Assembly: GCA_013911065.1 (NCBI GenBank)
Contig: JACERV010000036.1
Span: 1 to 50,534 of the forward strand
Direction of reading: 5' to 3'
DNA: 50,534 nucleotides
Source: Ruminococcus sp.
GTDB lineage: Bacteria > Bacillota > Clostridia > Lachnospirales > Lachnospiraceae
In this document: positions 12,860 through 36,783 of the stretch, piece after piece
How positions within the stretch are numbered: position 1 is the first letter of the stretch
Layout: each line of letters opens with the position of its first letter
Notes under the pieces: generated by a model
Seen by the model: only the letters and a program-made list of their open reading frames with translations
Told to the model about the DNA's origin: nothing
Databases searched by the model: none
Position numbers and translations under genes: made by a program

Positions 12860-12867
12860 TAATATCT

Positions 12868-13126: not shown

Positions 13127-13132
13127 ATAAAA

Positions 13133-13606: not shown

Positions 13607-13707
13607 TTTTCTTCCCCCCTCTCTATTAATTTACCACAAATGTTGTTCTTTTTCAAAAATTCTCTGAATAGATTAGAATCAAAGAGAGACAAGGTCAGAG
13701 GTATATC

Positions 13708-20344: not shown

Positions 20345-21118
20345 TTACATGCTTACAGACATCACAATATTAACTGGTGTGACCGATGTGACTTTATCCA
20401 CATACAACGCGTAAATATCACTCTCCTTCTCCAGAGTATCCTTATCTACCCAAAGATGGGATTTCAGCAGAAACGGCTGTCCTAATTCCCTTTTCTCCGG
20501 CTTGATAAATTGAAAATAATTCTGGCGGCTCTGTGTTGTTATCCGGTATTCTCCCCATTTTGCAGGCTTAGCCGGGACATTAATATTTAAAATATCCACA
20601 TCCTTTGGCATACCCTGCTGCAGAACCCGGGAAGCCCATGTACGGAGCACCTCTATGGATGCCCCCCAGTCGGTATCCTGAAACTCATTGGAACGCTGTA
20701 TTTGAAAGTCAGCCTCCAAAGACACGGCAATGGCAGGTACTTGATGGCTCACCGCCTCTAATGCCGCACCAAAGGTGCCGCTGCATGTCAGCACAGTCCC
20801 CAGGTTTTCTCCGTAGTTTATACCGCTGATGCAAAGGTCCGGCTTCCTTTCCGAAAGCTCTAATATACCATGGGCCGCCGCAAAGGCAGGAGAGCCGTGA
20901 ACACTATACCCTTTCACACTGCGTCCTCTTACTGACATTTCCACTTCTTCTATTATCCCGGTATCCTCAGCCCTGGGAAAGGCACGTCCCATCCCTGTCT
21001 GCTGGGTATGAGGTGCAGATATCACCACATCTGCCAGGTCTGCCACTGCTTCTGCTGCTGCGGCAAGACCAGGAGAGAGGATTCCGTCATCATTGGTAAT
21101 TAAAATCATCGGTTTCAT
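20345..21118 (-). CDS. surE: 5'/3'-nucleotidase SurE
   Basis: 257 aa metal-dependent phosphatase. It starts with ILITNDDGILSPGL, the DD plus ND metal-binding loop, and has SGINYGENLGTVLTCSGTFG, which supplies the remaining ligands. SurE dephosphorylates nucleotides and other small phosphoesters. It is the last gene after SDR and FGGY kinase (33-nt gap, GAGGTGAG site). In that position it may act on a phosphorylated intermediate and not on nucleotides; this is inference. A short relic of a second copy lies 500 bp away. Confidence 0.92.
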   Translation of the reverse strand: MKPMILITNDDGILSPGLAAAAEAVADLADVVISAPHTQQTGMGRAFPRAEDTGIIEEVEMSVRGRSVKGYSVHGSPAFAAAHGILELSERKPDLCISGINYGENLGTVLTCSGTFGAALEAVSHQVPAIAVSLEADFQIQRSNEFQDTDWGASIEVLRTWASRVLQQGMPKDVDILNINVPAKPAKWGEYRITTQSRQNYFQFIKPEKRELGQPFLLKSHLWVDKDTLEKESDIYALYVDKVTSVTPVNIVMSVSM

Positions 21119-21151: not shown

Positions 21152-22582
21152 TCAATGAAAAAGTTCGTAAGATTTTTTCAGTATATCATCTGTATGACTC
21201 GTTATATCCGTATATACAGGCAGCATTTTTGCATAAAATTCTACCCTCTCAGCATTTGGCTCGAAGCTGTCTTTCATTCTTACCATATTTGCAACCGCTT
21301 CGTCAAAGCTGTCATAGATTCCTGTTGCTACTGCCGCGCAGATTGCCGAACCAAGGCCTGCCGCTCCATTCACTTCATTGCGTACGGTCTGGATGTCAAA
21401 TACATCTGCAAATATCTGCATAAACAAATCGCTGTTTGAACCGCCTCCGGTAATAATAATCTTATCCAGGTTTACCCCCAGCTCCCCGCACATATCATTC
21501 AAGTGCTTCTTCATTGTCAGCGCAACTGCTTCAAGGATAGAACGGTAAATATGGCCTCTTGTGTGCCTTCCGTCAAATCCAATCATGATACCTTTCTTGT
21601 ACATGGCATCTACCGGTGCCAGCCAATCCAATACTGTCATCAGTCCGTCTGAGCCTACAGGAACCTTTTCAGCTTCCTCACTGAGCAGCTCTTCTGCAGA
21701 TAACCCTTTCTCTTTTGCAGCCTTTATATAACTGTCGCCAAGGATATCCCGGAACCAGCTGATGGTCCACATTCCTCTGCGGATTCCGTTGCTGTCATAC
21801 AGATACTTATTCGGTACACAGGAAAACTTAGGCCATACACTTTTTGTATTTCTTAAGAACTCTTTTCCTTCCATCATGGCTGCGGTATAAGTCCCAAGAG
21901 AAATGCATGCGGTAGTATCTCCCATGCATCCTGTTCCAAGGCCCTCTACTGCTTTATCATTGGAAGTCGCCACTACTGGCAGCCCTTCCGGAAATCCGGT
22001 GGCCTTTGCCGCTTCTTTTGTCACATGTCCCAGTATATCTCCCGGCATTACCAGATCAAAAAGCATGTCTTTAGGCATTCCGGTAGACTCATAAGCAGCC
22101 GGGTCGTCGGACCAGTTCCATTTGTCAACATCAATGGGCCATACACCTTCATAATTCGCTACCGTATCCTTAAATTCTCCTGTCAGACGGTGTGTAATAT
22201 AACCGGAAGATGCAACAATATATTTGACGTCCGGGTTCGTATGCTCATAAGGCTTTGCTACACGGACATCCATCCAGCTCAAAGCCGGCTGTGCCAGTGT
22301 TCCGTCTGCTTTCAGATAAGCTCTGCAATAACGGATGGTACACAGGCCGATGCCTACGATATCCTTTACATTACCTTTAAAATCAGCCATGCACTTCTTT
22401 GAAGCCTCACAGATTGCATCCCACCAATCATCATCCGGGTGCTCTACAAGCCCAGGCTCCGGCAGATTATATGGTTTTAATGCATGTCTTCCTTCACATA
22501 CAATATTGCCCCTCGTGTCAAATATAAGAATCTTGGCGCTTTGGGAACCTTCATCAACTCCGATGATATATTTCTCACTCAT
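21152..22582 (-). CDS. FGGY-family carbohydrate kinase
   Basis: 476 aa, two ribonuclease-H-like domains. The N-terminal phosphate loop is IIGVDEGSQSAKILIFD, the mid-protein signature GDTTACISLGTYTAAM matches the GxTxSxSxGTT pattern of the family, and the C-terminal FGGY signature is IIITGGGSNSDLFMQIFAD. The second metal-binding residues are in AALGSAICAA-like GAAGLGSAICAAVATG. It phosphorylates a sugar or polyol; the motif set is closer to xylulo- or erythritol-type kinases than to glycerol kinase, but that is weak. It is paired with the SDR dehydrogenase upstream under the attenuator at 23515. Confidence 0.9.
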   Translation of the reverse strand: MSEKYIIGVDEGSQSAKILIFDTRGNIVCEGRHALKPYNLPEPGLVEHPDDDWWDAICEASKKCMADFKGNVKDIVGIGLCTIRYCRAYLKADGTLAQPALSWMDVRVAKPYEHTNPDVKYIVASSGYITHRLTGEFKDTVANYEGVWPIDVDKWNWSDDPAAYESTGMPKDMLFDLVMPGDILGHVTKEAAKATGFPEGLPVVATSNDKAVEGLGTGCMGDTTACISLGTYTAAMMEGKEFLRNTKSVWPKFSCVPNKYLYDSNGIRRGMWTISWFRDILGDSYIKAAKEKGLSAEELLSEEAEKVPVGSDGLMTVLDWLAPVDAMYKKGIMIGFDGRHTRGHIYRSILEAVALTMKKHLNDMCGELGVNLDKIIITGGGSNSDLFMQIFADVFDIQTVRNEVNGAAGLGSAICAAVATGIYDSFDEAVANMVRMKDSFEPNAERVEFYAKMLPVYTDITSHTDDILKKSYELFH

Positions 22583-22642: not shown

Positions 22643-23428
22643 TTATCTTACAAGATATCCGCCGTCAACCACTAATAAAGTTCCATTTACATAGTCAGCC
22701 GCATGGCTTGCAAGAAATACCGTTGCTCCCATGAGATCCTGCCTCTGTCCCCAGCGGTCCGCCGGAATATGGTCTTTAATCTTGTTATATTTTTCATCAT
22801 TTGCGCTTCCTGTTCCGGAAGTCATTGCAGTCTGGAAATAACCCGGAGCAATACCATTTACAGTGATTCCATACTTGCCAAGCTCGTCTGCATAAGCCTT
22901 TGTAAGACCCATAAGCCCTGCTTTCATAGCTGCGTATGCCGGGGAGCCAAGTCCGCCGAGGAATGAGAACAGAGAACAGATGTTGATGATTTTTCCGCTT
23001 CTTTGAGGAATCATGTATTTCGCAACTGCATGGCTCAAATCAAAAGCGCCTGTCAGATTGATTGCAATCATCGGATCCCATTCTTTTCTTCCAAACTCAA
23101 GTACATCCGCAATATTGCAGATACCTGCGCAGTTTACCAGAATGTCAATCTGTCCATAAGTTTCCACACACTTTTCAGCAATCTGATCGCACACGCCGTC
23201 CTGTGTTAAATCACCCTGCATAAATGTATATTTTACTCCACAGTCTTCGATTAATTTCTGTGTTGTTCCGTCATCGTCTACAAATGCAAATGCAAAAATA
23301 TTTGCTCCTGCTTTCGCAAGTGCCAGTGCAAACGCCTGTCCCAATCCACTATTCCCACCTGTTACGATTGCATTTTTTCCTTTCAGGGAAAAGAAATCCA
23401 TTGAAAAATCATTAATATCAAAGCTCAT
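22643..23428 (-). CDS. Short-chain dehydrogenase/reductase
   Basis: 261 aa classical SDR using NAD(P). The cofactor loop is TGGNSGLGQAFAL, with the catalytic Ser in NICSLFSFLG and the YxxxK motif in SPAYAAMKAGLMGL. The C-terminal VNGTLLVVDGGYLV is typical. The sequence resembles KduD/gluconate 5-dehydrogenase-like SDRs that work on sugar acids and polyols. GGAGG lies 7 nt before the ATG. It is the first gene after the attenuator leader and precedes the kinase by 60 nt, so oxidation or reduction then phosphorylation is a sensible order. Confidence 0.92.
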   Translation of the reverse strand: MSFDINDFSMDFFSLKGKNAIVTGGNSGLGQAFALALAKAGANIFAFAFVDDDGTTQKLIEDCGVKYTFMQGDLTQDGVCDQIAEKCVETYGQIDILVNCAGICNIADVLEFGRKEWDPMIAINLTGAFDLSHAVAKYMIPQRSGKIINICSLFSFLGGLGSPAYAAMKAGLMGLTKAYADELGKYGITVNGIAPGYFQTAMTSGTGSANDEKYNKIKDHIPADRWGQRQDLMGATVFLASHAADYVNGTLLVVDGGYLVR

Positions 23429-23514: not shown

Positions 23515-23618
23515 AAAAAAAGAGCAACCTTTACACGCATACCACGTGTAAAAGTTACTCTCTCTTCCGCTCTTTTAGTAACTATAGCCATTATAAATCC
23601 CACAATACTGTTTGTCAA
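23515..23618 (-). promoter_or_regulatory. Attenuated leader C: promoter, antiterminator stem, terminator
   Basis: Minus strand. TTGACA (23613-23618), 17-bp spacer, TATAAT (23590-23595), 6 bases, then AGTTAC at 23578-23583 at the likely start of the RNA. A purine-rich loop (TAAAAGAGCGGAAGAGAG) follows, then AGTAAC. GAGTAACTTTTACACG pairs with CGTGTAAAGGTTGCTC (23522-23560), followed by seven Ts: a strong terminator before the SDR gene. GTTAC and GTAAC can pair instead, which would break the terminator. The same arrangement recurs at 33228-33340 and 33416-33508. Confidence 0.85.
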
Positions 23619-23674
23619 TATCGTGATTATAGTTAAAATCACACCCTCATTTTTGTCTATATTGCATACTTAGC

Positions 23675-23721
23675 GTTACTGTTCAGACCATGCCGTGCAC
23701 CCGAAGGGTGTGAACTGTAAC
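23675..23721. repeat. Palindromic element after the glpP-like gene
   Basis: GTTACTGTTCA pairs with TGAACTGTAAC with one mismatch, and inside CACCC pairs with GGGTG. No T run follows, so it is not a plain terminator. A related element starting with the same CGTTACTGTTCA lies at 29767-29798. Confidence 0.6.
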
Positions 23722-23724
23722 TAC

Positions 23725-24300
23725 TTAACAATCCCACATTTCCCGGTTCGTTGTAGACACCGCAAAAGCACCTGCTTTCAGTGCCCCCATAACATCTTCT
23801 TTATCCAGAATCAAGCCGCTGGCTACCACTGGTTTGTCAATTTCTTCCAAGAGATATTTTATGACCTTAGGAAGTCCCGCGGGGAGAAATTCAACTACAT
23901 CCGGGTTACAGCTTTTTACGTGCTTTACAATATTGGCGTAAGTCAGGGCATCCATCATATAAAACCTCTGTATCGTAAACATACCCAGTTCATTAGCGCG
24001 TTTAATTAACGCTGGTTTCATACTGATAATTCCATCCGCCTTCGTATATTTCTTTATAAAGTCTACGCTAATTTCCTTAGAGGAAAGCCCTACAATCAAG
24101 TCCACATGTACAACCGCCATTTTTCCCATAGATTTTACACTATCCACAATATCTGCAATCGTACAGATATCCCCGTAAATGATATAAACAATCCCGCACT
24201 CTGCTTCTTTACAGTGGGCAAGCCACTCATCATTTTTGGCCGCCGGGATTACCGGAGAGACCTCTGTCGCTTCCATAAAATATTCCTTGGTCAATGCCAT
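23725..24300 (-). CDS. glpP: GlpP-family glycerol-3-phosphate-responsive antiterminator
   Basis: 191 aa, a complete GlpP-type TIM-barrel RNA regulator. Family blocks visible are SPVIPAAKN, VVHVDLIVGLSSKE, TIQRFYMMD, VEFLPAGLPKVI and VVASGLILDKEDVMGALKAG with AVSTT. In Bacillus, GlpP with glycerol 3-phosphate stops terminators in glp leaders from forming. Here no glpF, glpK or glpD lies nearby, but three leaders in this locus have matching attenuators, so the ligand may be glycerol 3-phosphate or another phosphorylated intermediate made by the FGGY kinase. It follows the BCCT gene by 6 nt; AAGGAG site before the ATG. The symbol marks the family, not proven glycerol control. Confidence 0.88.
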   Translation of the reverse strand: MALTKEYFMEATEVSPVIPAAKNDEWLAHCKEAECGIVYIIYGDICTIADIVDSVKSMGKMAVVHVDLIVGLSSKEISVDFIKKYTKADGIISMKPALIKRANELGMFTIQRFYMMDALTYANIVKHVKSCNPDVVEFLPAGLPKVIKYLLEEIDKPVVASGLILDKEDVMGALKAGAFAVSTTNREMWDC

Positions 24301-24306
24301 TCGCTA

Positions 24307-25923
24307 TTACTCCTTTTCCATTGGTAGCTGCGGTACCTCAATGGGACGTCCGCTGCTGTCATAATCTTCCTTGTGTATATCATATTTCCGGGGATTTATT
24401 CCGATTTTCCATAATCCGATAATCATAATAATTACCAGAAACATGTTCGGAAATCCACCAAGATTTGAAGCAGCCTTGATTCCGTCAATTCCCGCAAAAC
24501 TGATTAATATCCATGTCATCACCGCAATAGAAACGCCCCAGACAACCTTAAGCCATGGCCATGACTCCTGTTCCTCAACCGTAATACCATGTGTACACAA
24601 GCCCGCCATAGCATTTGTGTTAGAGTCGGCCGCTGTAACAAAGGATATGAATACAATAAACAGATAAAATGGAATTACAATGACTGCCAAAGGCAGTTGT
24701 TCAAATACGACATAGACAACCGCTTCCGCTCCTTTGTCTAATAATGTATCATATAATCCTATCCCATTCAACTCATAATAAATAGAAGCCGTAGCAAAAA
24801 GGCCAATCCAGATTGTACCGAAAACTGCAGGAATTACAAGGTTGCATTTAATCGCATCCCTTACAGTATAACCCTTTAGTATTTTCCCTAAAAACACAGC
24901 CGTAATCGGTGTCCACGCCAGCCAGTTGCACCAATAAAAAATTGGCCAGCTTTTCGCCCAGCTATCCTGAAATATATCTCCTGTCATAAGACTCATGCTG
25001 AAAAAATCCCGTAAATATGCTCCCATTGATTCCGTTGTGAAATTCAGCATAAATGCAGTTGGCCCAAACACCAGCAGAAAAATAATTAATACCATATATA
25101 CTTTTGTATTGATATTTGAAAGCATACGGATTCCGCGCATAACCCCAGAAATACTTGATGCAACAAAAGACGTTACTATCACCGCAATAATAATGCCCCA
25201 GGATAAGGGTGCGCTCGGAATTCCAAACCTATTTTCAATTCCGCCTCCGATAGTCAGAGTTCCGGTTCCTAATGATGCGGCCATCCCCGCAACAAGTGCA
25301 AAAAGGCAGATTACATCTACCACTGTATTATACCGCTTCACCTTCTCGCCAAATACAGGAACAAGTGCCGATCCCATAGAATACGGCTGGTTCATGTTAT
25401 AAAACACAAATGCAAATAGTATCGTTGCTACTGTATAGATTGCACAAGGAGACCATGTCCATTCCAAAAACATCGTCTTCATGGCAAAGATTGCGGAACC
25501 CGCAGAGCCTGCCTGGACTCCTGCCGCTGCAGGAGGGGCATACATGTGGTACATTGGTTCCGCACATGCCCAGAATAAAATCCCGGCAGCAATAATCGTA
25601 CAAAGCGTAATCCATGCCAAATCCCAGAACTTCATAATAGGCCTTGCTTTGTTTCCTCCGATCCTAACCTTTCCAAGAGGAGAAAACCATATAAATATAA
25701 TTGTAATTACACATGCAAGAACAGTCAGATTAAAAGCCCATGCAAAGTTATTCAGAATCCAGCCGGTTACCGCATTCAGGCCGGCCAAAAAAACATCCCC
25801 GTTCACCAGGCTTACAATAACCATCGCTATCAGAAGCAGCCATGGAGGAAAAAACACACCCTTCCTTAACGTCAGCTTTACAGTTTTCTCATTTGTCCCA
25901 TTCACCTCATTTGTCTCCGCCAC
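24307..25923 (-). CDS. BCCT-family transporter
   Basis: About 538 aa with twelve hydrophobic segments, of the betaine/carnitine/choline transporter family. It has FYWCNWLAWTPITAVFLG, a variant of the FYWAWWxxWxPFxGxF signature, and the glycine-rich GMAASLGTGTLTIGGG. The frame also opens at an ATG at 25965, but the GTG at 25923 shares one base with the stop of the upstream YcxB-like gene (TAGTG) and has GGGAGAG about 7 nt before it, so I choose that start. Substrates of BCCT proteins are usually quaternary amines or similar osmolytes; which one here is unknown. The pairing with EtfAB recalls the caiT-fixAB layout. Confidence 0.9.
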   Translation of the reverse strand: MAETNEVNGTNEKTVKLTLRKGVFFPPWLLLIAMVIVSLVNGDVFLAGLNAVTGWILNNFAWAFNLTVLACVITIIFIWFSPLGKVRIGGNKARPIMKFWDLAWITLCTIIAAGILFWACAEPMYHMYAPPAAAGVQAGSAGSAIFAMKTMFLEWTWSPCAIYTVATILFAFVFYNMNQPYSMGSALVPVFGEKVKRYNTVVDVICLFALVAGMAASLGTGTLTIGGGIENRFGIPSAPLSWGIIIAVIVTSFVASSISGVMRGIRMLSNINTKVYMVLIIFLLVFGPTAFMLNFTTESMGAYLRDFFSMSLMTGDIFQDSWAKSWPIFYWCNWLAWTPITAVFLGKILKGYTVRDAIKCNLVIPAVFGTIWIGLFATASIYYELNGIGLYDTLLDKGAEAVVYVVFEQLPLAVIVIPFYLFIVFISFVTAADSNTNAMAGLCTHGITVEEQESWPWLKVVWGVSIAVMTWILISFAGIDGIKAASNLGGFPNMFLVIIMIIGLWKIGINPRKYDIHKEDYDSSGRPIEVPQLPMEKE

Positions 25924-26444
25924 TACACTCTCTCCCTTCTCAACACTATATTTATAAAGCTGCATTTCTGTTTTGCTGCTATGTTCTTCAATTCTTTCTG
26001 CTGTGTCTCCGTTATGACCCTTTTCGGAATTGTAAATACATCCCGGTCAGCCCGTATGACACAGACATGCTCAGAACTCAAGAACAGAAGTCTTTTGCCT
26101 GCCAGCTTTATATTCTCTTTCCCGTCCCCCGGTATAATAGATGTGTCTGTAATTTTGAGCCTGTACTCCCCCTGCTGCCCTGCCATTTTCTTTGCTTTCC
26201 TTTTCCTTATATACCGAATCCCATAAGTCATATACAAAAGCATCACAATAATAATCAACAGAAGCAGAAAAAGAAACACTTGATCCGGATTCCTCATAAA
26301 CCCAATTAAAACAACTGCTCCAATGATACTAATCACCCAAAGGTTTATCCTGCTAAACGCCCCTTCCCGTTTCCAGTCTAAATCCAGCAGTGCTTCTTCT
26401 ATTTCTTCCCGAGTTAATTTATATCTAAATTCCAGTGAAATCAT
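25923..26444 (-). CDS. YcxB-like membrane protein
   Basis: 173 aa from the ATG. Two hydrophobic segments lie near 35-80 (LWVISIIGAVVLIGFM and FLFLLLLIIIVMLLYMTYG), and the soluble C-terminal half contains YRLKITDTSIIPGDG, a pattern of YcxB-like domains. Function unknown. It overlaps the end of etfA by about 20 nt and shares a base with the BCCT start, so it sits inside the operon as a coupled gene. No good ribosome site is placed for the ATG, and translation may rely on coupling. Confidence 0.65.
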   Translation of the reverse strand: MISLEFRYKLTREEIEEALLDLDWKREGAFSRINLWVISIIGAVVLIGFMRNPDQVFLFLLLLIIIVMLLYMTYGIRYIRKRKAKKMAGQQGEYRLKITDTSIIPGDGKENIKLAGKRLLFLSSEHVCVIRADRDVFTIPKRVITETQQKELKNIAAKQKCSFINIVLRRERV

Positions 26445-27438
26445 CACCTTTCTGCATTTTCAGCCGCTCAATCAGTTCAGGAACAATTCCATACAAATCA
26501 CCGCAAACCGGATAATGAGCTATCTCAAATATTCTGGCACTTGGATCTTCGTTAATTGCAATGATATTCTTTGTCTGCTTCATCCCTGCCATGAATTGTA
26601 CTGTGCCCGATACTCCGCATGTTATCATGTACTGGGGACTGACCGCATTCCCTGACAATCCAATCTGCTCCCGGGGAGACATCCATCCCTTTTCAACCAG
26701 CGCTCTGCTGGATGCCAGTTTACCGCCAAGAAGCTCTGAGAGTTCACGCAGCATTTCAAGGTCTTCCTTCTTCCTGACTCCTCTTCCCGCAACAACCAGT
26801 ATGTTCTGCTCCGTAATGCTGTCGCCGCTCTCTGTCTCTTTTACCTCCAGAACTTTGAATCTCTCATCCGTCAAGTTTACCATTTCCCTTACTATCACCG
26901 GTTCGCGGAGGCTTTCTTCAAAAACAGGTTCCATAACCCCGGGCCTTACTGTGGCAAACTGAGGTCTGCTGTGAGCGGTTACGATGCTTGCCATCACATT
27001 TCCCCCAAATGCGGGCCTTATCTGTATCAAATTACCTTCTGTATCTATTTCAAGAGATGTACAGTCTGCGGTAAGTCCACTTTCAAAGGCAACTGCCAGC
27101 CTGGGGGCAAGTGCTCTCCCCTCATAAGTACCTCCGATAAGGACGATGGACGGTTTCAGCTTCTCTATACATCCAGCTATTATGTTTTCATAAACAATGG
27201 GAGTGTATTCATCGTCTGTCTCATATAAATACAATTTCTCAAGAGGGCATCCGGTCAGCTGAGAGGAAATATCATCCAGCCCGCTGCCTGCCGCCACTGC
27301 ATAAACAGCAGCCCCCAGCTCCTCTGCAAGGCGCCATGCCTCACCAATCAGTTCACGCCCTACCGGATGCACTTTTCCCTTTCTGCATTCCACATACACG
27401 AGGATTCCGGACCACTCCCCGATGTTTGACTTTCTCAT
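26425..27438 (-). CDS. etfA: Electron transfer flavoprotein alpha subunit
   Basis: 337 aa. The C-terminal FAD domain has GLSGNAVSPQYMITCGVSG, QFMAGMKQTKNIIAINEDP and the GD-containing end, all typical of EtfA. The N-terminal adenine nucleotide-like domain starts ILVYVECRKGKVHPV. The frame opens 19 codons earlier at 27495, but AAAGGGG lies 8 nt before the ATG at 27438, so I take that one. It lies 74 nt after etfB. Together they carry electrons from the FAD-linked oxidases in the same operon; whether they bifurcate cannot be told. Confidence 0.94.
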   Translation of the reverse strand: MRKSNIGEWSGILVYVECRKGKVHPVGRELIGEAWRLAEELGAAVYAVAAGSGLDDISSQLTGCPLEKLYLYETDDEYTPIVYENIIAGCIEKLKPSIVLIGGTYEGRALAPRLAVAFESGLTADCTSLEIDTEGNLIQIRPAFGGNVMASIVTAHSRPQFATVRPGVMEPVFEESLREPVIVREMVNLTDERFKVLEVKETESGDSITEQNILVVAGRGVRKKEDLEMLRELSELLGGKLASSRALVEKGWMSPREQIGLSGNAVSPQYMITCGVSGTVQFMAGMKQTKNIIAINEDPSARIFEIAHYPVCGDLYGIVPELIERLKMQKGDDFTGI

Positions 27439-27512
27439 ATCGGTTCCCCTTTCTATCAAGCATAAAGTTTTATCACAGTTCAGCCGTAAGTTCAAGCACC
27501 TTTCCCTTTACA

Positions 27513-28301
27513 TTACGAAAGATTTGCATGGCCTAACTGTGATAAAATATATTCTGCCGCTCCGGCCCCGCCAAGAGTCACTGGTTCCTGCTGTTTTGTC
27601 CGCGGCGGCGGAAATATTTTGCGTACTCTTGTAGCCGATCCCGACAGTCCATAATGTTCCTTGTCCTTATCTTCTAAATCCTCCATGGTCAGCACATGTA
27701 TTTCCTTTTTCTTCCCGCTGATTTTCAGCTTCAGGGAAGGCATCCTGGGCACAAAAGAATCCTTTTCCACCGACACCAGACAGGGTAAGCTTACACTAGC
27801 TGTAACCATCCGGTTTTCCATACTATACCTGACCTTCATGTCTGCATCGGAAATATCCATAATCTCCGTTGTCCAGTTTACATGTGGAAGATTCATCCAT
27901 CTCGCAAGCCCGCCGCTTACCTGAGCCGTATCTCCATCCGTCGTCTGTTTTCCACACAAAATAAGGTCATAATCTCCTGCAGCCCTGATGGACTGCATCA
28001 AGGTGTAAGAAGTGGCAAGCACATCTGCCCCGGCAAATGCTTTATCACAAATAAGCCAGCCCTCATCTGCACCCATGGCAAATGCTTCCCGCAGGACATT
28101 CTCTGCTTTTGCAGGCCCCATGGTAAAGACATGGACGCTTGCTCCCCTGCTGTCTTTTATTTTCAATGCAGCTTCCAGGGCAGACAAATCATACACATTC
28201 ACGATAGCTTCCAGACCGGCCCTCAGGAGTACTCCTGTCTCAGGGTCCATATTTCCCTCGGAAACTGCCGGCACCTGTTTCATGCAAACTGCAATTTTCA
28301 T
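27513..28301 (-). CDS. etfB: Electron transfer flavoprotein beta subunit
   Basis: 262 aa. Family blocks: MKIAVCMKQVPAV at the start, FTMGPAKAENVLREAFAMGADEG, and LILCGKQTTDGDTAQVSGGLA. It overlaps the upstream FAD oxidase gene by 4 nt and has an AAAAGGTGG site. Partner of etfA downstream. It belongs to the EtfB group that keeps the GKQTTDGDTAQ loop contacting the nucleotide. Confidence 0.95.
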   Translation of the reverse strand: MKIAVCMKQVPAVSEGNMDPETGVLLRAGLEAIVNVYDLSALEAALKIKDSRGASVHVFTMGPAKAENVLREAFAMGADEGWLICDKAFAGADVLATSYTLMQSIRAAGDYDLILCGKQTTDGDTAQVSGGLARWMNLPHVNWTTEIMDISDADMKVRYSMENRMVTASVSLPCLVSVEKDSFVPRMPSLKLKISGKKKEIHVLTMEDLEDKDKEHYGLSGSATRVRKIFPPPRTKQQEPVTLGGAGAAEYILSQLGHANLS

Positions 28302-29740
28302 ACCTCACCCACCTTTTCCGGAAAAATATTCCCCCTGTTCCACATATTTTCCTTATCAAACTCTGCCTTCAATTCCCGGCATAGCCCTGTATATTCTTCC
28401 GATATCAAATCACCCAATATTTTCTGCTTTAACTTTCCTACTCCATGCTCTCCAATTACCTCTCCCTGCTGTTCCTTAACTTCTGCTGCCCATTTTCGGA
28501 TTAACAGAATTCCTTTTTCATAGTCTTCATAGCAATCCGGCAATATATTAACATGAAGATGATTCTCCAGCGCATGTCCAAATATGCAGCCTTTTAAGCC
28601 TGCAGCAGATAATTCATTTTGAAAGTTTTCAAGAACACGGGAAAACGGAATGTCTGGAACTACCATGTCCGTACCCAGTTTTGTAATCCGTTTATCTTCC
28701 CTGCGGACCGCCTCGATATAAAGATTGGCGGTTTCTGCTGCACCGTGGCGGAAGGCATGAAGTTTTTCCACATCAAGCTCTCCCGATACGGCCCACGCCT
28801 CATCCGGGTCACTGTTGGCAAGCATCGCTGATTCCATCAGGGATTCTGCCAGCACTTCAATGCCCTCTTCCTCACCGTGAAGCTCTATATACACCATACC
28901 TGCCCTATTTTCATCGATATCAGGCAGCTCTTTGATTTTGGTCATGGTGCTTTTATGAGACTCAATTAGATTTATCGTCTCTCTATCCATATACTCCACT
29001 GCTGCCACAGAGGCATTTTCACTCTTCGGAAGTTCCTGTTTTAAAATATCCACAAACTTTCCGGCATCTCCAATCTCTTGAAAGAAGAAAGCAATGCCCC
29101 ACATACTTTCAGGTTTTGGTATCAATTTTAAAGTTAGTTCACTGATAACCCCTGTAATGCCTTCCTTTCCCAATACCACATCCAGCATTTCCATCGTTTT
29201 TCCAGAGCTAAGCGTAAACTTTTGTCCTCTCTCAATGACATGAATCTTTCCCTTGCTGTCAATCATTCGTAACGCTTCAATATAATCCTGGCTGGGGCCA
29301 TAAAGCAGACGGCTGATCCCCTGGGCATTTGTAGCCACAATTCCGCCCATCGCAGCAGAACTCTCTGTTGGATCAGGAGGCCAAAACAGCGGGTTTTTCC
29401 GGAATCTCGCACTAATTTCCTTTTTCAGGTCCATAAGGTTGATTCCTGGCTCTACAATCATCCGCCCGGTTCCATCCTCCAAAAGGTAGCTGTCCTTCAC
29501 CTTGTTCATATGGGAAAGGTTCATAATATGTCCGCCCTCCGGGATGGATGAGCCTGTGATGCCCGTTTTGCCGCCCTGTATTGTAACCGGCACGCGCTCT
29601 TTTGCAAGTTCTCCGATGACTTCCTGTATCTCTTCTTCATTCTCAGGAAAAGAGATACTTTGTGCATACCCGGAAAACTTGGCTTCATCAATGACATATT
29701 CTTCATACTGTTCTTTCATCGGATAAATCAGTTGTCTCAT
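28298..29740 (-). CDS. FAD-binding oxidoreductase, GlcD type
   Basis: 480 aa of the VAO/PCMH flavoprotein family. The N-terminal FAD domain has VPVTIQGGKTGITGSSIPEG, and the C-terminal cap domain ends with GEHGVGKLK, the GlcD/D-lactate dehydrogenase pattern. Such proteins oxidise 2-hydroxy acids and pass electrons to EtfAB, whose genes follow directly (4-nt overlap). The substrate is open: lactate, glycolate, glycerate-like acids. AGGGAG lies before the ATG. A 15-bp palindrome sits in the 61-nt gap to the EtfBA-fusion gene upstream. Confidence 0.92.
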   Translation of the reverse strand: MRQLIYPMKEQYEEYVIDEAKFSGYAQSISFPENEEEIQEVIGELAKERVPVTIQGGKTGITGSSIPEGGHIMNLSHMNKVKDSYLLEDGTGRMIVEPGINLMDLKKEISARFRKNPLFWPPDPTESSAAMGGIVATNAQGISRLLYGPSQDYIEALRMIDSKGKIHVIERGQKFTLSSGKTMEMLDVVLGKEGITGVISELTLKLIPKPESMWGIAFFFQEIGDAGKFVDILKQELPKSENASVAAVEYMDRETINLIESHKSTMTKIKELPDIDENRAGMVYIELHGEEEGIEVLAESLMESAMLANSDPDEAWAVSGELDVEKLHAFRHGAAETANLYIEAVRREDKRITKLGTDMVVPDIPFSRVLENFQNELSAAGLKGCIFGHALENHLHVNILPDCYEDYEKGILLIRKWAAEVKEQQGEVIGEHGVGKLKQKILGDLISEEYTGLCRELKAEFDKENMWNRGNIFPEKVGEV

Positions 29741-29766
29741 AAGTTGTACTCCCTGTCGTTTAATCG

Positions 29767-29798
29767 TTACTGTTCACAGGCTTGCCTGTAAACAGTAA
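29767..29798. repeat. Palindromic element in the operon
   Basis: TTACTGTTCACAGGC-TT-GCCTGTAAACAGTAA, with one mismatch in 15 pairs, in the gap between the EtfBA fusion and the second FAD oxidase. It may affect mRNA stability or attenuation. It shares CGTTACTGTTCA with the element at 23675. Confidence 0.6.
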
Positions 29799-29801
29799 TG
29801 T

Positions 29802-31646
29802 TTAATCCTCTGCCAGCGCTTTAACTGCCTTCATCACAGATTCAAAATCCTCTGCCACCGCAACATCAGCTTTTTTCATAATCGGTGCTTTTTCATCTGT
29901 GTTTATAGCCACAATAAATTTGCTCTTTTCAATACCCGCAAAAAATGCGGCTGCACCGGACACTCCTGCCGTAATGCAGATTTCCGGCTGTATCATTGCG
30001 CCTGACACACCAATTAGTTTATTCATGGGAGCCCATGCATTCATGGCTGCCGGACGGCTGACTCCCAATTCTCCGCCCAGCACTTTTGCCGTCTCCTCCA
30101 AAAACTTTACACGCTCTTTATTTTTTGCGCCTCTTCCGGCTGCTATCACAACTTTGGCACTTTCCAGTCCTCCTGTCGTCTCCTCCTCACAGGTTTCTCT
30201 GGAAACCACAAAATCATTTCCGGTCAGGCATGGAATTTCTTTTAAGATACAAAAGCTTTTTTCTTCTACTGCTTTACGCTCCATTCCCTTCGCCAAAGAA
30301 ATGCAGTATGGTCCCTTTTTCATCTGGAAGGTTCCTTCCATGTGGTTGGAATATACCATTTTTTTGACCATCAGTTGTGCTTTGGCTTCCAAAGCATGCA
30401 CTGCCGTAACGGAGCTTCCCTTTGTTCTTTCAGCTATTCTCACTGCCAGCTCCGTTCCGCCAAAGCCACTTCCAAAAATATACAGGTCATCCTCTGCTGC
30501 TTCCTGACATAAGCCTTCCAGTACTGCTTCCGGGAAATAGTCCTGTGCACTTAAAATAACTGCATTTTCCGCTATACAAAGGGATTCAGCTTTTGCCTCC
30601 GAAGCCGTTTTGCTTAAAATATACGCTTCCCCTTCTTCAAATCCCTCCAGAAATGCTTCTCTAAAGGCATTCATCTCTTCCATCTGCCGGTGCACATCTT
30701 TGGAATACCTGTCAATCACAAAATGAAATTTCATCTCTTTGCAAGATGAAGCCTCCGGCGGATTACAGAGGCGCGCTGATGCATGTGTCATGCTTGGCAT
30801 GACTCGCGCCTCGCAGCAAGTACGCCTCGGCGTACTTGATAGAGTCTCAAGCCTCCCTTTCAGATATGTCTCATACAGTACTCGTGCCTTATCCTCCGGG
30901 GTATCTCCTGTAATTATCACCGTATCTCTTTTACTGTCCTTAGGTTCCAATCCCACAAGTTCCACATTTTGTTGCGCTCCTGACAGTTCAAATTTTTCTG
31001 AAATAATATGTTCGATGGGCTTCTTTCCAAGTCTCATTTTTTCTTTCAGGGTGGGTACTCTCAGGTAAGAGCATGTTGCATTTCCCACTGCAAATACGCA
31101 GGGCAATTTTATAACCTGAGTCACCGTTTTCCCATCTTCCTGACTGAAAACTTTTATATGCTCCTCATCTACAGGAAAAAGGTCTGTCACCTGGGTAATA
31201 CAGGGCCAGTTCAATTTTTCTGCAAGAAGTAAAGGTGTTTTCATATTACTTCCATCAGAACTTTGTGTCCCCATCACAATCAAATCCTGAGGGGCACTTT
31301 CGGTCACATAATCTGCAATCACCTCTGCAATGACTTCAGGACAGAAGCTGATATTTTCTTCGGCCTCTACCCGGACTGCATATGCAAATCCCAGTGCATA
31401 TAATGTTTTCAAAAAATTTTCATGCTGGCGCCTGCCCACTGTCAATGCGTTCAATTCATAAACGACATCAAAGCCTTCTGATAAATCAGAAAGCTTTAAT
31501 ATCATTTCCAGTGCTCCTTCGTCAAAACAGTTCCACAATAACTTTCCATAGCTGGTGTCCACCTGAAGCTGGTCATCTGCTATCCAGTCTTCCTCAGCAA
31601 TCAAGTCTAAGTCCGGAACTATCTTAAAACAACCTAATACTTTCAT
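29802..31646 (-). CDS. Fused electron transfer flavoprotein beta-alpha
   Basis: 614 aa. Residues 1-265 are EtfB-like (MKVLGCFKIVPDLDLI, LIVMGTQSSDGSNMKTPLLL). Residues from about 305 to the end are EtfA-like and end with KLIGVSGAMIQPEICITAGV and FIVAINTDEKAPIMKKADVA. The link, about residues 267-304, is a Ser/Arg/Cys-rich stretch coded by a nest of perfect palindromes (30735-30845) and looks like an inserted element. Both halves differ clearly from etfA and etfB at 26425-28301, so this is an old paralogue. It follows the first FAD oxidase by 4 nt, suggesting a dedicated pair. Confidence 0.88.
   Translation of the reverse strand: MKVLGCFKIVPDLDLIAEEDWIADDQLQVDTSYGKLLWNCFDEGALEMILKLSDLSEGFDVVYELNALTVGRRQHENFLKTLYALGFAYAVRVEAEENISFCPEVIAEVIADYVTESAPQDLIVMGTQSSDGSNMKTPLLLAEKLNWPCITQVTDLFPVDEEHIKVFSQEDGKTVTQVIKLPCVFAVGNATCSYLRVPTLKEKMRLGKKPIEHIISEKFELSGAQQNVELVGLEPKDSKRDTVIITGDTPEDKARVLYETYLKGRLETLSSTPRRTCCEARVMPSMTHASARLCNPPEASSCKEMKFHFVIDRYSKDVHRQMEEMNAFREAFLEGFEEGEAYILSKTASEAKAESLCIAENAVILSAQDYFPEAVLEGLCQEAAEDDLYIFGSGFGGTELAVRIAERTKGSSVTAVHALEAKAQLMVKKMVYSNHMEGTFQMKKGPYCISLAKGMERKAVEEKSFCILKEIPCLTGNDFVVSRETCEEETTGGLESAKVVIAAGRGAKNKERVKFLEETAKVLGGELGVSRPAAMNAWAPMNKLIGVSGAMIQPEICITAGVSGAAAFFAGIEKSKFIVAINTDEKAPIMKKADVAVAEDFESVMKAVKALAED
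30735..30845. repeat. Nested palindromes inserted in the EtfBA fusion gene
   Basis: Four stems in 110 bp: GCCTC/GAGGC (30751-30772), GAGGCGCG/CGCGCCTC (30768-30812) enclosing GTCATGC-TTG-GCATGAC (30787-30803), and AAGTACGCC-TC-GGCGTACTT (30818-30837). It is in frame and GC-rich compared with the flanks. It resembles a small palindromic mobile repeat. Part of the base string (GACTCGCGC) recurs in the hairpin cluster at 50308. Confidence 0.75.
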
Positions 31647-31650
31647 AAGC

Positions 31651-33108
31651 CTATTTCCTGAGCGGAATCAGTGTTCCCATGTTCATGATACCATTCGGGT
31701 CGAATGCTTGTTTCAGCGTCTTGAGCATGTAATAGGAAGAACCGTATTCCTGTGTTACATATTTTGCTCTAGCTTTTCCAAGTCCGTGGTGGTGAACAAT
31801 AGACCCGCCGTATTTAATAACCTGCTCGCAGATAATCTGATTGATTCTGTCATGGTATTTATTAATTTCTTCTTCCGGTGCACAATCCACAACATTGTAG
31901 TAATATACGAAGTACATATTTGTACCATTGATGTAGCTGTGTGAAGAATGTCCGCCCATCAGAGTCATATCCGGAACTTCCTCCAGAATTCTGTCACAGG
32001 CTGTTCTGTAAATTTCGTAGATATTATCCCAGCTTCCTGATACTTCTGTTGTGATGCCGATGTTATGAGTTGCTCTGATTTCTTCCATTTCCTCAGCAAT
32101 CTCTTCCGGTCCCCAGTTGAGTCCGCTGTACCATTTTTCAATGAGCGTTGGATCTATTTCTTCAAGCTCCGGATGTTTGGACATCATTTCTTTGATTCCT
32201 GCCTCCATTGCCGGAGTAATATTTGCCGGTCCTTCTGCCATCCAAATCAGGATTGCCTTGCCGTCCTCCAGCCATGAACTAAAATGCTGCTGTGCATCTG
32301 CCGCATCATAAAGTCTTGCAAAAGATGGTTTGTACCCTGCAACCATAACCTCACGCAGGCAGTCAAAGCCAAGCTTCATCTGGTCATCATCCAGCTTATA
32401 TCCGATGTATCTGTTGTTTTCCGGCATCCATTTAAATAATTTTAATGTCACTTCTGTGATGAAGCACAAAGCACCCTCATTTCCGCAGATAATGTGTCTG
32501 ATGTCCGGTCCTGCCGCACGTCTTGGCACGTTTTTGATTTTACAGATTTTTCCGTTAGGAAATACAGCTTCCAGACCTACAATCATATCTTCAATTCCAC
32601 CATACAAAGTAGAGAACTGTCCGATACTTCTTGTTGCAACCAGGCCGCCCATCTGTGCCAGAGGTTTAGACTGAGGAGAATGGCCTGTTGTATAGCCTCT
32701 CTCTCTTAACATATCGTCCAGCTCCTGAAGAGGAACTCCGCACTCGCATGTAACCTGCATGTTATACTCGTCCACTTTAATTACCTTATTCATAGTGGAT
32801 CCGTCAAGGACTATAGAATCTTTCAGTGAAGTCTCTAATCCGCCTTCAATTGCAGACTGCCCTGTTCTTGGTACTACGTTAATTTCGTTTTCATTTGCAA
32901 ACATAAGTACTTCAGATACCTCTTGGGCACTATTTACATATACAACTGCTGCCGGAATCGGCTGTGTGTATACTTCACATGCCTGCTCATATTTTCTGTA
33001 CCGGTCGAGGCTGCTCTCTTTTAGTACCTGTTCGTCCGTTACTACCTGTTCTTTTCCCAGGATTTTTACCAATCCTTCTACGATTTGCTCTCTTGGAATA
33101 ATTGCCAT
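31651..33108 (-). CDS. FAD-binding oxidoreductase, GlcD/alkyl-DHAP synthase-like
   Basis: 485 aa VAO-family flavoprotein. The FAD domain has VVPRTGQSAIEGGLE and a second contact region around GGLVATRSIGQFSTLYGG. The C-terminus has IVHHHGLGKARAKY; the triple His followed by GxG is the signature I know from alkyl-DHAP synthase, whereas GlcD proteins read GEHGxGxxK. So the substrate may be a glycerol-phosphate or DHAP-type compound or a related 2-hydroxy acid. It heads the operon behind the attenuated leader at 33228-33340. AAAGGAG lies 9 nt before the ATG. Confidence 0.9.
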   Translation of the reverse strand: MAIIPREQIVEGLVKILGKEQVVTDEQVLKESSLDRYRKYEQACEVYTQPIPAAVVYVNSAQEVSEVLMFANENEINVVPRTGQSAIEGGLETSLKDSIVLDGSTMNKVIKVDEYNMQVTCECGVPLQELDDMLRERGYTTGHSPQSKPLAQMGGLVATRSIGQFSTLYGGIEDMIVGLEAVFPNGKICKIKNVPRRAAGPDIRHIICGNEGALCFITEVTLKLFKWMPENNRYIGYKLDDDQMKLGFDCLREVMVAGYKPSFARLYDAADAQQHFSSWLEDGKAILIWMAEGPANITPAMEAGIKEMMSKHPELEEIDPTLIEKWYSGLNWGPEEIAEEMEEIRATHNIGITTEVSGSWDNIYEIYRTACDRILEEVPDMTLMGGHSSHSYINGTNMYFVYYYNVVDCAPEEEINKYHDRINQIICEQVIKYGGSIVHHHGLGKARAKYVTQEYGSSYYMLKTLKQAFDPNGIMNMGTLIPLRK

Positions 33109-33227
33109 GATACTGGGCTCCTTTCACTCTTCCACATTTTCTTTGATACTTCACCTAAAGGTTTATTTTGCCCTCTCTTCGGAGAGTTATTCTTATGTAA
33201 CGGGAAACACAATTTTTCAAATTACAT

Positions 33228-33340
33228 AAAAAAAAGAAAAGCAACACAACGCAGGGAATCCCTGACTCTGTGGTTACTTTTCTCTCAAAATCTCTTTTGG
33301 TAACTGCTACTAGTATATACGCACTGCTATCAATTGTCAA
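33228..33340 (-). promoter_or_regulatory. Attenuated leader B: promoter, antiterminator stem, terminator
   Basis: Minus strand. TTGACA (33335-33340), 17-bp spacer, TATACT (33312-33317), 6 bases, AGTTAC (33300-33305). Loop CAAAAGAGATTTTGAGAGAAA, then AGTAAC. GAAAAGTAACCACAGAG pairs with TTGTGTTGCTTTTC across a CAGGG/CCCTG tip, followed by eight Ts. The FAD oxidase operon, including the GlpP-like gene, lies behind it, so the regulator would control its own synthesis. Confidence 0.85.
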
Positions 33341-33415
33341 TTGTTTATTTTTCATATGATTGTATTATTGTTTTTATGCACAATGTTTATTTTTCTTATT
33401 TTGCCCTTTTTTTGA

Positions 33416-33508
33416 TTGACTTCTTTAGACAAATATCTTATAATCCGATTAGTTACAAGAGTGGAGAGAGAAGTAACGCCAATCGTGGCATTATTTTTCT
33501 CTTTTTTT
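33416..33508 (+). promoter_or_regulatory. Attenuated leader A: promoter, antiterminator stem, terminator
   Basis: Plus strand. TTGACT (33416-33421), 17-bp spacer, TATAAT (33439-33444), 6 bases, AGTTAC (33451-33456). Loop AAGAGTGGAGAGAGA, then AGTAAC at 33472-33477. GAGAGAAGTAACGCCA pairs with TGGCATTATTTTTCTC (33466-33501), followed by seven Ts, all before the MFS gene. It lies divergent to leader B with about 75 bp between the two -35 boxes. Confidence 0.85.
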
Positions 33509-33584: not shown

Positions 33585-34826
33585 ATGAACAAAGCTTTTA
33601 TTAAAAAGTATGGTACCCTGCTTCTTCTCGCAGCCGGTGCCGGGATTATTTTCCAATTGCCGTACATCCGTGAGACCTTCTACGTACCAATTCAAAACGC
33701 AATGAACCTTACAAATGCGCAGATGGGACTCTTATCTTCCGGATATGCAACAATGGCAACTCTTTCTTATTTTGTAGGAGGTATTATTGCCGATAAGTTT
33801 TCAGCAAGAAAACTGCTTACGTTTTCCTTTATTGCAACCGGTATCCTTGGATTATGGTTTTCCACATTCCCTGGCTACACCATAAGCCGTATTATCTTCG
33901 TATTGATGGGTATTTCTACAATCATTACTTACTGGTCTGCCTGCATCAAGGCAACACGTATGCTGGGTTCCGACGATGAACAGGGCCGTCTCTTCGGTCT
34001 TCAGGAAGGTCTTCGCGGTGTCCTCAATGCTCTTCTCGTATTTGGTATGACTGCTGCATTTACACGCTATACTAGTGAAGTAGCCGGAGCTTCCGCTGCA
34101 ATTAGAGTTTGCTCTATTGTTGTAATTATTATCGGTATCCTGAATTTTATCTTTATTGAGGATACAAAGAGAGAAGAAAACGCTGAAAGTATTGCAGAAG
34201 TTACAAAAGGTATGTTTAAAGCTCTGTTAATTCCAAGAGTATGGCTCCTTGTTGCAATTATCTTCACTGCATACAGTGTGTATGGACTGATTGGATATGT
34301 AAACACCTATGCAGTTAAGTTTTATGGATTATCTGCTGCAACGGCTGCAACACTTGGCGGTGTGCGTTATTTGATTCAGGGACTTGGCGGTATCGTCGGA
34401 GGATTCCTGGCAGATAAAGTAAAATCACGTTTCAAGGTAATTATTGGTGGATGTATCGGATTGGCAGCATCATTCGGACTGTTCATCGTACTTCCTGCAA
34501 ATGCTTCTCTGGTTGTAGCAATTGTTGCTAACTTCTTCCTTGGCCTGTTCTTCATCTACGCCGTAAGAAGCCAGTACTTTGCAGTGCATGATGACGCTGG
34601 AATCCCTGTAAATATGAGCGGACGTGTATCTGGTATCGCATCCTGCTTAGGTTATACACCAGACCTCTTTATGTATACACTGGTAGGCGGATGGATGGAT
34701 AACTATGGCAGAACAGGTTACAACATGACATGGGCTTATGCAATGGTTGCCGCACTTCTCTGTGCAGTTATCACATTTGTATTAAGCCGGATTGTAAAAA
34801 AAGAAAAGGCTGCAAAAGCGGCGTAA
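33585..34826 (+). CDS. MFS transporter
   Basis: 413 aa with twelve hydrophobic segments. The loop after helix 2 reads GGIIADKFSARK, the conserved GxxxDRxGRR-like motif of the major facilitator family, repeated in weaker form as GGFLADKVKSRFK. Its closest resemblance is to sugar-phosphate or organic-acid MFS proteins. It is divergent from the FAD oxidase operon and has the same type of attenuated leader, so it likely brings in or exports a compound of that pathway. GGAGG lies 7 nt before the ATG. Confidence 0.92.
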   Translation: MNKAFIKKYGTLLLLAAGAGIIFQLPYIRETFYVPIQNAMNLTNAQMGLLSSGYATMATLSYFVGGIIADKFSARKLLTFSFIATGILGLWFSTFPGYTISRIIFVLMGISTIITYWSACIKATRMLGSDDEQGRLFGLQEGLRGVLNALLVFGMTAAFTRYTSEVAGASAAIRVCSIVVIIIGILNFIFIEDTKREENAESIAEVTKGMFKALLIPRVWLLVAIIFTAYSVYGLIGYVNTYAVKFYGLSAATAATLGGVRYLIQGLGGIVGGFLADKVKSRFKVIIGGCIGLAASFGLFIVLPANASLVVAIVANFFLGLFFIYAVRSQYFAVHDDAGIPVNMSGRVSGIASCLGYTPDLFMYTLVGGWMDNYGRTGYNMTWAYAMVAALLCAVITFVLSRIVKKEKAAKAA

Positions 34827-36321: not shown

Positions 36322-36660
36322 TTACAGCGCCCCCTCGCCGCGTTCTCCTGTACGTATCCTGACTGCATCTTCAACTTCATAAACGAAAATCTTGCCATCT
36401 CCATATGTGCCGGTCTGAATTTCTGCTACCACTTTCTTGATAATCACTTCTGCGGTTTCAGCCCCGACAATGGTTTCAATCTTTATCTTGGGAAGCAGAT
36501 TTACACCATATTCGGCACCGCGGTACATCTTCTTATGCCCTTTCTGATTACCATATCCCATAATATTTGTAATCATAAGGCCATTTGCAGCATTTTCATC
36601 AAGAATAGACTTTAAGTGCTCCAGTTTCTCCGGCTGAATAATAATTTCCAGCTTCTTCAT
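36322..36660 (-). CDS. P-II nitrogen regulatory protein
   Basis: 112 aa, exactly the usual length. The ATG at 36660 has AAAGGAGG 7 nt upstream; the longer frame to 36771 would cover the promoter and terminator and is not used. The T-loop region runs YRGAEYGVNLLPKIKIE, with the tyrosine of the T-loop in AEYGV. The C-terminal TGTYGDGKIFVYEVEDAVRIRTGE is the classic block. It binds 2-oxoglutarate and ATP/ADP and, with the adjacent amt, controls ammonium uptake. GlnK or GlnB cannot be told apart; amt linkage favours GlnK. Confidence 0.95.
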   Translation of the reverse strand: MKKLEIIIQPEKLEHLKSILDENAANGLMITNIMGYGNQKGHKKMYRGAEYGVNLLPKIKIETIVGAETAEVIIKKVVAEIQTGTYGDGKIFVYEVEDAVRIRTGERGEGAL

Positions 36661-36691
36661 ATCACAACCTCCTTTTAATGTTTTAACAATC

Positions 36692-36767: not shown

Positions 36768-36783
36768 ACATATTTTATAAAAA

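Follow-up and report, generated by a model that had tools for sequence, protein, structure and literature searches.

A likely three-operon regulon under GlpP-type transcription antitermination in a Ruminococcus species

Results

The locus and its three leaders

The window analyzed here, a stretch of 50,534 nucleotides from Ruminococcus sp. (assembly GCA_013911065.1, contig JACERV010000036.1), contains a gene for a GlpP-family antiterminator protein together with three leader regions, each of which combines a promoter, a candidate antiterminator hairpin and an intrinsic terminator upstream of the first gene. The first leader precedes the genes for a short-chain dehydrogenase (SDR; 22643-23428), an FGGY-family kinase (21152-22582) and a SurE phosphatase (20345-21118), all on the minus strand (23428-20345). 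The second, likewise on the minus strand, precedes a longer series of genes (33108-23725). It starts with GlcD1 (31651-33108), a flavin adenine dinucleotide (FAD) enzyme with an HHH motif that resembles alkyl-dihydroxyacetone phosphate (alkyl-DHAP) synthase (4bby, E 1.2e-45), and continues with EtfBA (29802-31646), a fused beta-alpha electron-transfer flavoprotein (ETF), and with GlcD2 (28298-29740), an FAD enzyme similar to the bifurcating lactate dehydrogenase LctD (7qh2, E 1.2e-40). These are followed by ETF beta (27513-28301), ETF alpha (26425-27495), a 174-amino-acid protein with no Pfam match above the cut-off (25923-26447), a BCCT transporter of the quaternary-ammonium type (24307-25965; PF02028, E 4e-115) and GlpP (23725-24300). 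The third leader precedes the gene for an MFS transporter on the plus strand (33585-34826). Judged by the gene order, glpP would be the last gene of the second operon, the extent of which is predicted. As proposed in the preliminary description of the locus, the GlpP-family protein is complete; it matches PF04309 over its full length (E 1e-59).

The three leaders were found as that description had placed them, and they share its plan. The sigma-A promoters match the consensus at 12 of 12 positions before the SDR operon (TTGACA-17-TATAAT; 23590-23618, minus strand) and at 11 of 12 before both the GlcD1 operon (TTGACA-17-TATACT; 33312-33340, minus strand) and the MFS gene (TTGACT-17-TATAAT; 33416-33444, plus strand). 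The spacer of exactly 17 base pairs thus holds for all three leaders of the window, but it is not universal, as several orthologous glcD leaders have a spacer of 18. In each case the sequence AGTTAC follows the -10 hexamer at a distance of six bases. Its GTTAC is complementary to a GTAAC further downstream, and the purine-rich stretch in between measures 16 (MFS), 22 (glcD) and 19 (SDR) bases and carries AAGAG as well as GAGAG in all three leaders. A search of the 4.34-Mb genome with the pattern AGTTACN{0,4}AAGAGN{6,20}AGTAAC returned three matches, namely the three leaders, and the reversed control returned none.

The candidate antiterminators, hereafter GlpP elements, lie at 23553-23583 (minus strand) in the SDR leader, where AGUUACU and AGUAACU flank AAAAGAG and AGAGAG (41.3 bits with the covariance model R1 described below, which had this leader in its training set), at 33272-33305 (minus strand) in the glcD leader and at 33451-33478 (plus strand) in the MFS leader. 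The latter two were identified by the motif scan and by R1. Including the window, the alignments comprise 12 sequences for the SDR leader (A4), 12 for the glcD leader (A6) and 9 for the MFS leader (A5). The intrinsic terminators span 23518-23564 (SDR, minus strand, overlapping the 3′ half of the antiterminator; minimum free energy -31.3 kcal/mol, z -8.5), 33233-33285 (glcD, minus strand; leader minimum free energy -28.3 kcal/mol, z -5.4) and 33463-33508 (MFS, plus strand; -20.2 kcal/mol, z -4.8); each z-score refers to 200 shuffles, none of which folded as well as the leader in question. In the SDR terminator, 98.6% of the cells are paired and 6 of 18 pairs are altered on both sides among the 12 aligned sequences.

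In each leader GUAAC belongs to the 5′ arm of the terminator, so that the two pairings exclude each other on paper. By itself, the GTTAC/GTAAC hairpin reaches -3.7 kcal/mol in the SDR leader (7 base pairs), -0.3 kcal/mol in the glcD leader and -1.1 kcal/mol in the MFS leader (5 base pairs each), or -2.5 kcal/mol when the glcD and MFS pieces are folded freely. Because the hairpin alone is weak, termination is expected to be the default.

Two further structures in the window deserve mention. Between glpP and the SDR promoter (23674-23722, minus strand) the sequence AGTTACAGTTC...GAACAGTAACG may form a hairpin that lacks a T-run and likewise starts with AGTTAC and holds AGTAAC; it is present in L028, a locus that is a near copy of the window, and was not seen in L030. 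In addition, the PII gene (36322-36771), located upstream of an ammonium transporter gene, has a leader (36657-36767, minus strand) with a perfect promoter (TTGACA-16-TATAAT) and a strong terminator-like hairpin (36725-36696) that begins at most 15 bases past the promoter and precedes the PII start. This leader, which has no Rfam match, is perhaps an attenuator of a different kind.

Conservation of the leaders and co-occurrence with one GlpP clade

The preliminary description held that the leaders should be found beside orthologous operons. A scan with one genome per species yielded 44 named loci with GlpP relatives, 15 of which (L028-L042) encode a GlpP at least 66% identical to that of the window and are referred to as the pathway loci. 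The SDR/FGGY kinase/FAD enzyme/ETF pathway is present in 14 of them, the exception being L041, and absent from all 29 loci with lower GlpP identity, 23 of which instead contain matches to E. coli GlpK, GlpF or GlpA (22-25% identity). Similarly, glpP lies in or beside the operons in 14/15 pathway loci (L041 is cut), and relatives of the 174-amino-acid protein occur in 11/15.

Leaders that combine the strict GTTAC...GTAAC pair with a promoter and a T-run were detected at 32 sites in 13/15 pathway loci, the three of the window being counted apart. The remaining two loci are L037 and L041. L037 has altered stems that still pair, e.g., UAGGUAC/GUAUUUA, and a changed stem in L035 is likewise paired (AGUUGCUU/AGGCAGCU). 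In the upstream-region scan (60 trinucleotides, strict 5-base-pair stem), the element was present before SDR in 13/14 regions, before GlcD1 in 12/14 and before MFS-like genes in 14/15, in contrast to none of the 51 control regions upstream of the FGGY kinase, SurE, EtfA and GlcD2 genes. Elements with other stems were found at L032:2734 (minus strand; CAGAAC/GTTCTG) and L035:271 (minus strand; GTCACTT/AGGTGGC) and are perhaps extra members of the regulon. Moreover, in L037 (Clostridiales 1_7_47_FAA) two sulfatase genes precede the BCCT gene (10685-15489, minus strand), behind a GlpP-type element with the stem AGCCA/TGGTT.

These data bear on the notion that the leaders are plain constitutive attenuators in which GUUAC and GUAAC match without any regulator. 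The weakness of the antiterminator (-0.3 to -3.7 kcal/mol) and the position of GUAAC within a terminator arm would fit such a view. A terminator has no need of GUUAC at the start of the RNA, yet this sequence is kept in 21/21 distinct orthologous hairpins (which had been selected for containing GUUAC), and the loci with changed stems, L037 and L035, retain the pairing. We therefore regard unregulated attenuation as highly improbable.

The covariance model R1 of the hairpin was built on the MAFFT alignment A3, which misplaced gaps in the SDR-type rows. In a search of 49 sources, all 37 matches at E<=1 fell in the window and the pathway loci, most of them being training sequences or copies thereof. 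Among 397 genomes of the family to which the window belongs, nine had a match at E<=0.01, a threshold at which about four chance matches are expected. A GlpP of at least 70% identity was encoded in seven of the 397 genomes (the next best had 55%), and all seven carry an R1 match. The covariance-model search suggested in the preliminary description indicates that the matches co-occur with the GlpP clade, although the training set included relatives of several positive genomes; the more independent cases are G259 and G469. The MFS leader of G259 has a changed stem in which AAGUUACUUG pairs with UAGGUAGCUU.

It had also been argued that leaders conserved in genomes without a GlpP-like gene would speak against the proposal, and the two genomes with an R1 match but no clade GlpP were inspected in this regard. 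G469, a seeming counter-example with a GUUAC element and a GlpP of only 45% identity, has a GlcD1/MFS locus on a contig that ends inside EtfBA, ahead of where glpP would come. In G548 (E 0.004) an ATG follows directly behind the match and no terminator was seen, and the match was taken as chance. The same applies to a fourth GUUAC-type site in the genome of the window itself (C37:64339, E 0.0012), which by eye lies within an apparent clpP coding sequence.

The two GlpP proteins

A tree built from 78 GlpPs places the 16 pathway GlpPs, which include two identical ones (window and L028), in one clade with a support of 100/99. The solved structures nearest to the window GlpP are 3kts and 1vkf. Position 161, presumed to lie in the phosphate loop, is serine in 16/16 pathway GlpPs and glycine in 60 of the 62 others; in addition, the GlpP of the locus carries A141 where most others have glycine.

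The GlpP encoded within the locus is not the only one, and the preliminary description is to be corrected in this respect: the same genome encodes a second GlpP (C26), with a glycerol kinase gene (glpK) adjoining. This raises the question whether the C26 protein, which like its paralogue is a PF04309 member, antiterminates the leaders, in which case the locus would extend an ordinary glycerol regulon and answer to glycerol 3-phosphate. The C26 glpP, however, has an upstream element of its own, in which the stem differs and the loop is shorter (GUGCU-GAGAUGAUGAG-AGCAU), and among the 98 of 397 family genomes with any GlpP (E<=1e-40) the seven clade genomes and G469, with its cut locus, were the only ones in which credible GUUAC-type elements were found. 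Control by the C26 protein thus appears improbable. Since the C26 GlpP lies beside the glycerol kinase gene and has its own element, both paralogues probably operate in parallel.

A wider twin-GAG element at glycerol genes

The same plan is seen in further GlpP loci, where the stems differ but each element is again built around two GAG triplets and overlaps a terminator. Such stems are UGCUA/UAGCA (Enterococcus), CUUGUGUU/AACACAAG (an uncultured Clostridium), AUUUACC/GGUAAAU and UUACC/GGUAA (Lachnospiraceae), as well as UGUGA/UCACA and UUGUG/CACAA, which occur upstream of glpF in Bacilli. To select elements without regard to the stem, we used a terminator plus GAG-N(2-9)-GAG as the sole rule. 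Of 118 cores, 26 in open reading frames (ORFs) were removed, and after removal of overlaps and duplicates 63 elements were left (L028, the near copy of the window, is omitted from this set). A stem of at least 5 base pairs was present in 42 of the 63, compared with a mean of 15.4 and a maximum of 29 in 5000 permutations. Outside the pathway loci the numbers are 21/34 against a permutation mean of 7.0 and a maximum of 15. Where the stem comprises 5 base pairs or more, the 3′ half falls within the terminator in 55 of 55 elements, a closeness that is partly built in by the selection rule.

In a word control, GAG gave 77 elements with 54 stems, whereas none of six other words exceeded 23 elements and 6 stems; AAG, which overlaps AAGAG, gave 56 and 19. 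In this control the ORF mask of the plus strand served for both strands, and its 77 elements are a different set from the 63. The upstream-region scan ranked GAG first or level first before GlpO-like (11/18), SDR, GlcD1 and MFS-like genes, and third before glpA/D-like or glpT genes (5/7; AGA and GAA 6). Upstream of glpK in Clostridia, which served as a control, the element was found in none of 12 regions. E. coli GlpA was the single probe for GlpA and GlpO/GlpD-like genes, and the designation GlpO-like is tentative because this probe matches at only 22-25% identity in Clostridia.

For Bacilli, a second covariance model (R2) was derived from 15 leaders that we picked from 30 loci. These align without gaps around GAGANNNGGAGA-like cores, and at one fixed register 64.0% of the stem cells are paired, above all 500 shuffles (mean 50.5). 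A line at E<=0.005, set after the list had been seen, retains 46 matches, of which 33 remain after subtraction of 13 training sites. These 33 are distributed over 27 genomes, all of which encode a PF04309 gene (as do 105 of the 151 genomes searched). Twenty-two lie within 6 kb of glpP, and in 15 of the 18 non-training loci inspected the site adjoins a match to glpF, glpK, glpA/D, glpT or glpQ, which are genes under GlpP control in B. subtilis (PMC9604022). Taken together, a twin-GAG hairpin with a free but paired stem appears, from these comparisons, to mark glycerol-gene leaders across other GlpP genomes. In 8 of the 15 R2 leaders (L098, L099, L102, L103, L105, L110, L113, L118) the sequence GTTAATA stands just 5′ of the element, unlike in the pathway leaders, which begin with AGTTAC.

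Comparison with other RNA-based regulators

At the gathering score of Rfam 15 the window leaders match no family, nor does any family match in six other GlpP loci. The only matches in the window are a large bacterial signal recognition particle RNA (12866-13128, plus strand) and a group II intron (50412-50482, minus strand).

TRAP binds GAG repeats located beside a terminator, and the antiterminators of the BglG/SacY/LicT type bind the ribonucleic antiterminator, a short hairpin with internal loops, the 3′ part of which overlaps a terminator. The leaders share features with both, as well as with the target of HutP, which has NAG repeats at its binding site by a terminator (PMC7430163); LicT is mentioned in that source, too. 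The resemblance of the twin GAG triplets to these NAG and GAG repeats would favor a scenario in which the leaders serve a small-molecule riboswitch or another RNA-binding protein (of the BglG/SacY, HutP or TRAP type), with GlpP as a mere bystander. In contrast to the HutP and TRAP targets, the window leaders have two GAG strands only, within one small hairpin, and the protein at hand is a PF04309 GlpP. Besides lacking an Rfam match, they are not accompanied by a BglG/SacY/LicT, HutP or TRAP family member among ten scanned locus proteins. Moreover, they follow one GlpP clade, and the same plan recurs at glycerol leaders of other GlpP genomes. There is consequently little to recommend a bystander role of GlpP, to which we assign a very low probability.

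Genes and predicted pathway

The preliminary description held that a GlpP-type system here serves a different pathway. In agreement, the single GlpP clade is tied to SDR, FGGY kinase, FAD enzyme and ETF genes, with no glycerol genes: E. coli GlpF, GlpT, GlpQ, GlpA, GlpB, GlpC and GlpX probes (E<=1e-8, 40% coverage) had no match in L028-L042, and the GlpK probe gave just FGGY cross-matches of 22-26% identity in 5/15 loci. The locus thus resembles GlpP antitermination in its working but is not a glycerol regulon.

The closest solved structure to GlcD1 is alkyl-DHAP synthase (AGPS; 4bby), ahead of glycolate oxidase (7e-29) and LctD (2e-26). R265, Y399 and H439-441, the counterparts of catalytic residues of AGPS, are the same in 15/15 sequences. 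With the FAD fold, the arginine, the tyrosine and the HHH motif present, an alkyl-DHAP synthase activity is predicted for GlcD1, and this likeness suggests a DHAP-ether pathway. BCCT proteins occur in 14/15 pathway loci, which hints at a quaternary-ammonium substrate. The SDR and the FGGY kinase could convert a glycerol ether to an O-substituted DHAP, and GlcD1 could split the product. A DHAP-ether pathway would explain the recruitment of GlpP, a triose-phosphate sensor, and the altered residue 161 of the presumed phosphate loop. The FGGY kinase would supply the ligand, a compound similar to a triose phosphate, in place of glycerol 3-phosphate derived from glycerol.

A damage-control phosphatase (ARMT1-like, PF01937) is encoded after glpP in L029 (10593-11474, plus strand), and similar ORFs are present in L033 and L036. 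Together with SurE, it suggests the clean-up of a phosphorylated intermediate. The two sulfatases in the BCCT operon of L037 are not accounted for by a glycerol-ether pathway.

Discussion

The present analysis supports and widens the preliminary interpretation. The three operons of the locus very probably form one regulon, which the GlpP-family protein encoded there controls by transcription antitermination, and the leaders are a distinct variant of the GlpP-type regulator with a definable RNA element. As expected of a GlpP system, a PF04309 protein is encoded with the regulated genes, a terminator lies between promoter and first gene, and a site that excludes the terminator is present. That GlpP binds the leader RNA is suggested by co-occurrence and common architecture.

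We envisage the following course of events. RNA polymerase would start at the strong promoter, and the first transcribed bases would yield GUUAC...GUAAC. As the hairpin would be too weak alone, the overlapping intrinsic terminator would form by default. A ligand-loaded GlpP of the pathway clade would grip the hairpin through the stem and the two GAG-containing purine strands of the loop, and the bound hairpin would withhold the 5′ arm of the terminator, so that the operon would be read. Positive feedback would follow, because glpP, judged by the gene order, would be the last gene of one of the operons that it opens.

In Bacillus subtilis, the leaders of glpD, glpFK and glpT are targets of GlpP, and the same arrangement is found there: a GlpP-family protein and a strong promoter, a GlpP site and an intrinsic terminator in the 5′-untranslated region of several operons (PMC9604022). 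In the Bacilli genomes analyzed here, the twin-GAG hairpin overlapping a terminator before glpF, glpA/D-like and glpT genes is alike to the plan in the window, whereas the window stem is nearly fixed as GUUAC/GUAAC and the loop spacing differs. Whereas B. subtilis GlpP serves glpD, glpFK and glpTQ, the window genes form an SDR/FGGY/AGPS-like/ETF/BCCT/MFS pathway; our set contains no leader assigned by name to B. subtilis. A description of a GlpP RNA motif was not seen among the papers listed in our literature search, but may stand in the primary papers on the B. subtilis leaders (Glatz, Holmberg).

Several observations weigh against this interpretation. L041 encodes a clade GlpP, but no element was detected in its 11.9 kb. 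The contig stops 1.3 kb beyond glpP, the 10 kb upstream contain no pathway gene, and in L039, its nearest relative in the GlpP tree, the pathway lies downstream of glpP; for these reasons L041 leaves the matter undecided. Within the pathway loci the stem is nearly invariant and covariation is modest (29 elements, z 2.3). Correspondingly, 21/29 pathway-locus elements have a stem of at least 5 base pairs, compared with a permutation mean of 15.3 and a maximum of 21, a weak excess that is due to the pathway stems being mostly alike. Outside these loci, the element precedes GlpO-like genes in no more than 11 of 18 regions, and before glpF in Bacilli it is present in 4/12, GAG being joint second behind GGA (5) and level with AGA and TAA (4); AGA and GGA overlap GAG. 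The S161 that replaces glycine indicates that ligand use of the pathway clade may differ.

Likewise, the Bacilli model has its weaknesses. A slide by +2 columns gave a covariation of 0.330 as compared to 0.316 at the named stem (paired cells 57.3 vs 64.0%); the slide covaries as well because the stem offsets vary between Bacilli leaders. At E<=0.1, R2 matched 97/151 genomes, some without GlpP, and just above E 0.005 matches appeared in the GlpP-less genomes G128 and G118, so that weak R2 matches mean little. In a blind test on the window the three leaders were absent among 15 matches up to E 10, and the glycerol leaders of 27 Clostridia-type sources were not recovered. As R2 misses the window leaders and the purine strands are spaced differently, the pathway element is a distinct variant, and its link to the Bacilli elements lies in a common architecture, not in one profile.

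A broader reading, which we consider rather doubtful as a whole, would join these strands. The GlpP clade might have been repurposed from glycerol 3-phosphate to sense an O-substituted DHAP: gut Lachnospiraceae might import a quaternary-ammonium glycerol ether through BCCT, e.g., the deacylated head group of a dietary betaine lipid, the SDR would oxidize C2 of the glycerol, the FGGY kinase would phosphorylate the product, AGPS-like GlcD1 working in reverse would release DHAP and an alcohol, and ETF-linked GlcD2 would help to oxidize the alcohol. The antiterminator and the twin-GAG element would join the three operons, and the element would represent a general family of RNA targets of GlpP in Bacillota that has so far escaped cataloguing. 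Our literature search found no paper on a BCCT/ETF/FGGY pathway in Lachnospiraceae and, judged by titles and abstract openings, none on such a betaine-lipid/AGPS/BCCT pathway of the gut.

Taken together, the likely RNA target of GlpP gains a concrete shape, namely a covarying stem, two GAG strands and an overlapping terminator, which occurs at glycerol genes and at a different pathway. Recognition by GlpP thereby becomes testable by a few point mutants, and regulons become easier to read from genomes. A GlpP clade that has moved to a non-glycerol pathway and resides beside a glycerol-type GlpP in the same cell provides a natural test of how paralogues avoid cross-talk, and the locus draws attention to a gut pathway, so far little known, that centers on an enzyme resembling alkyl-DHAP synthase.

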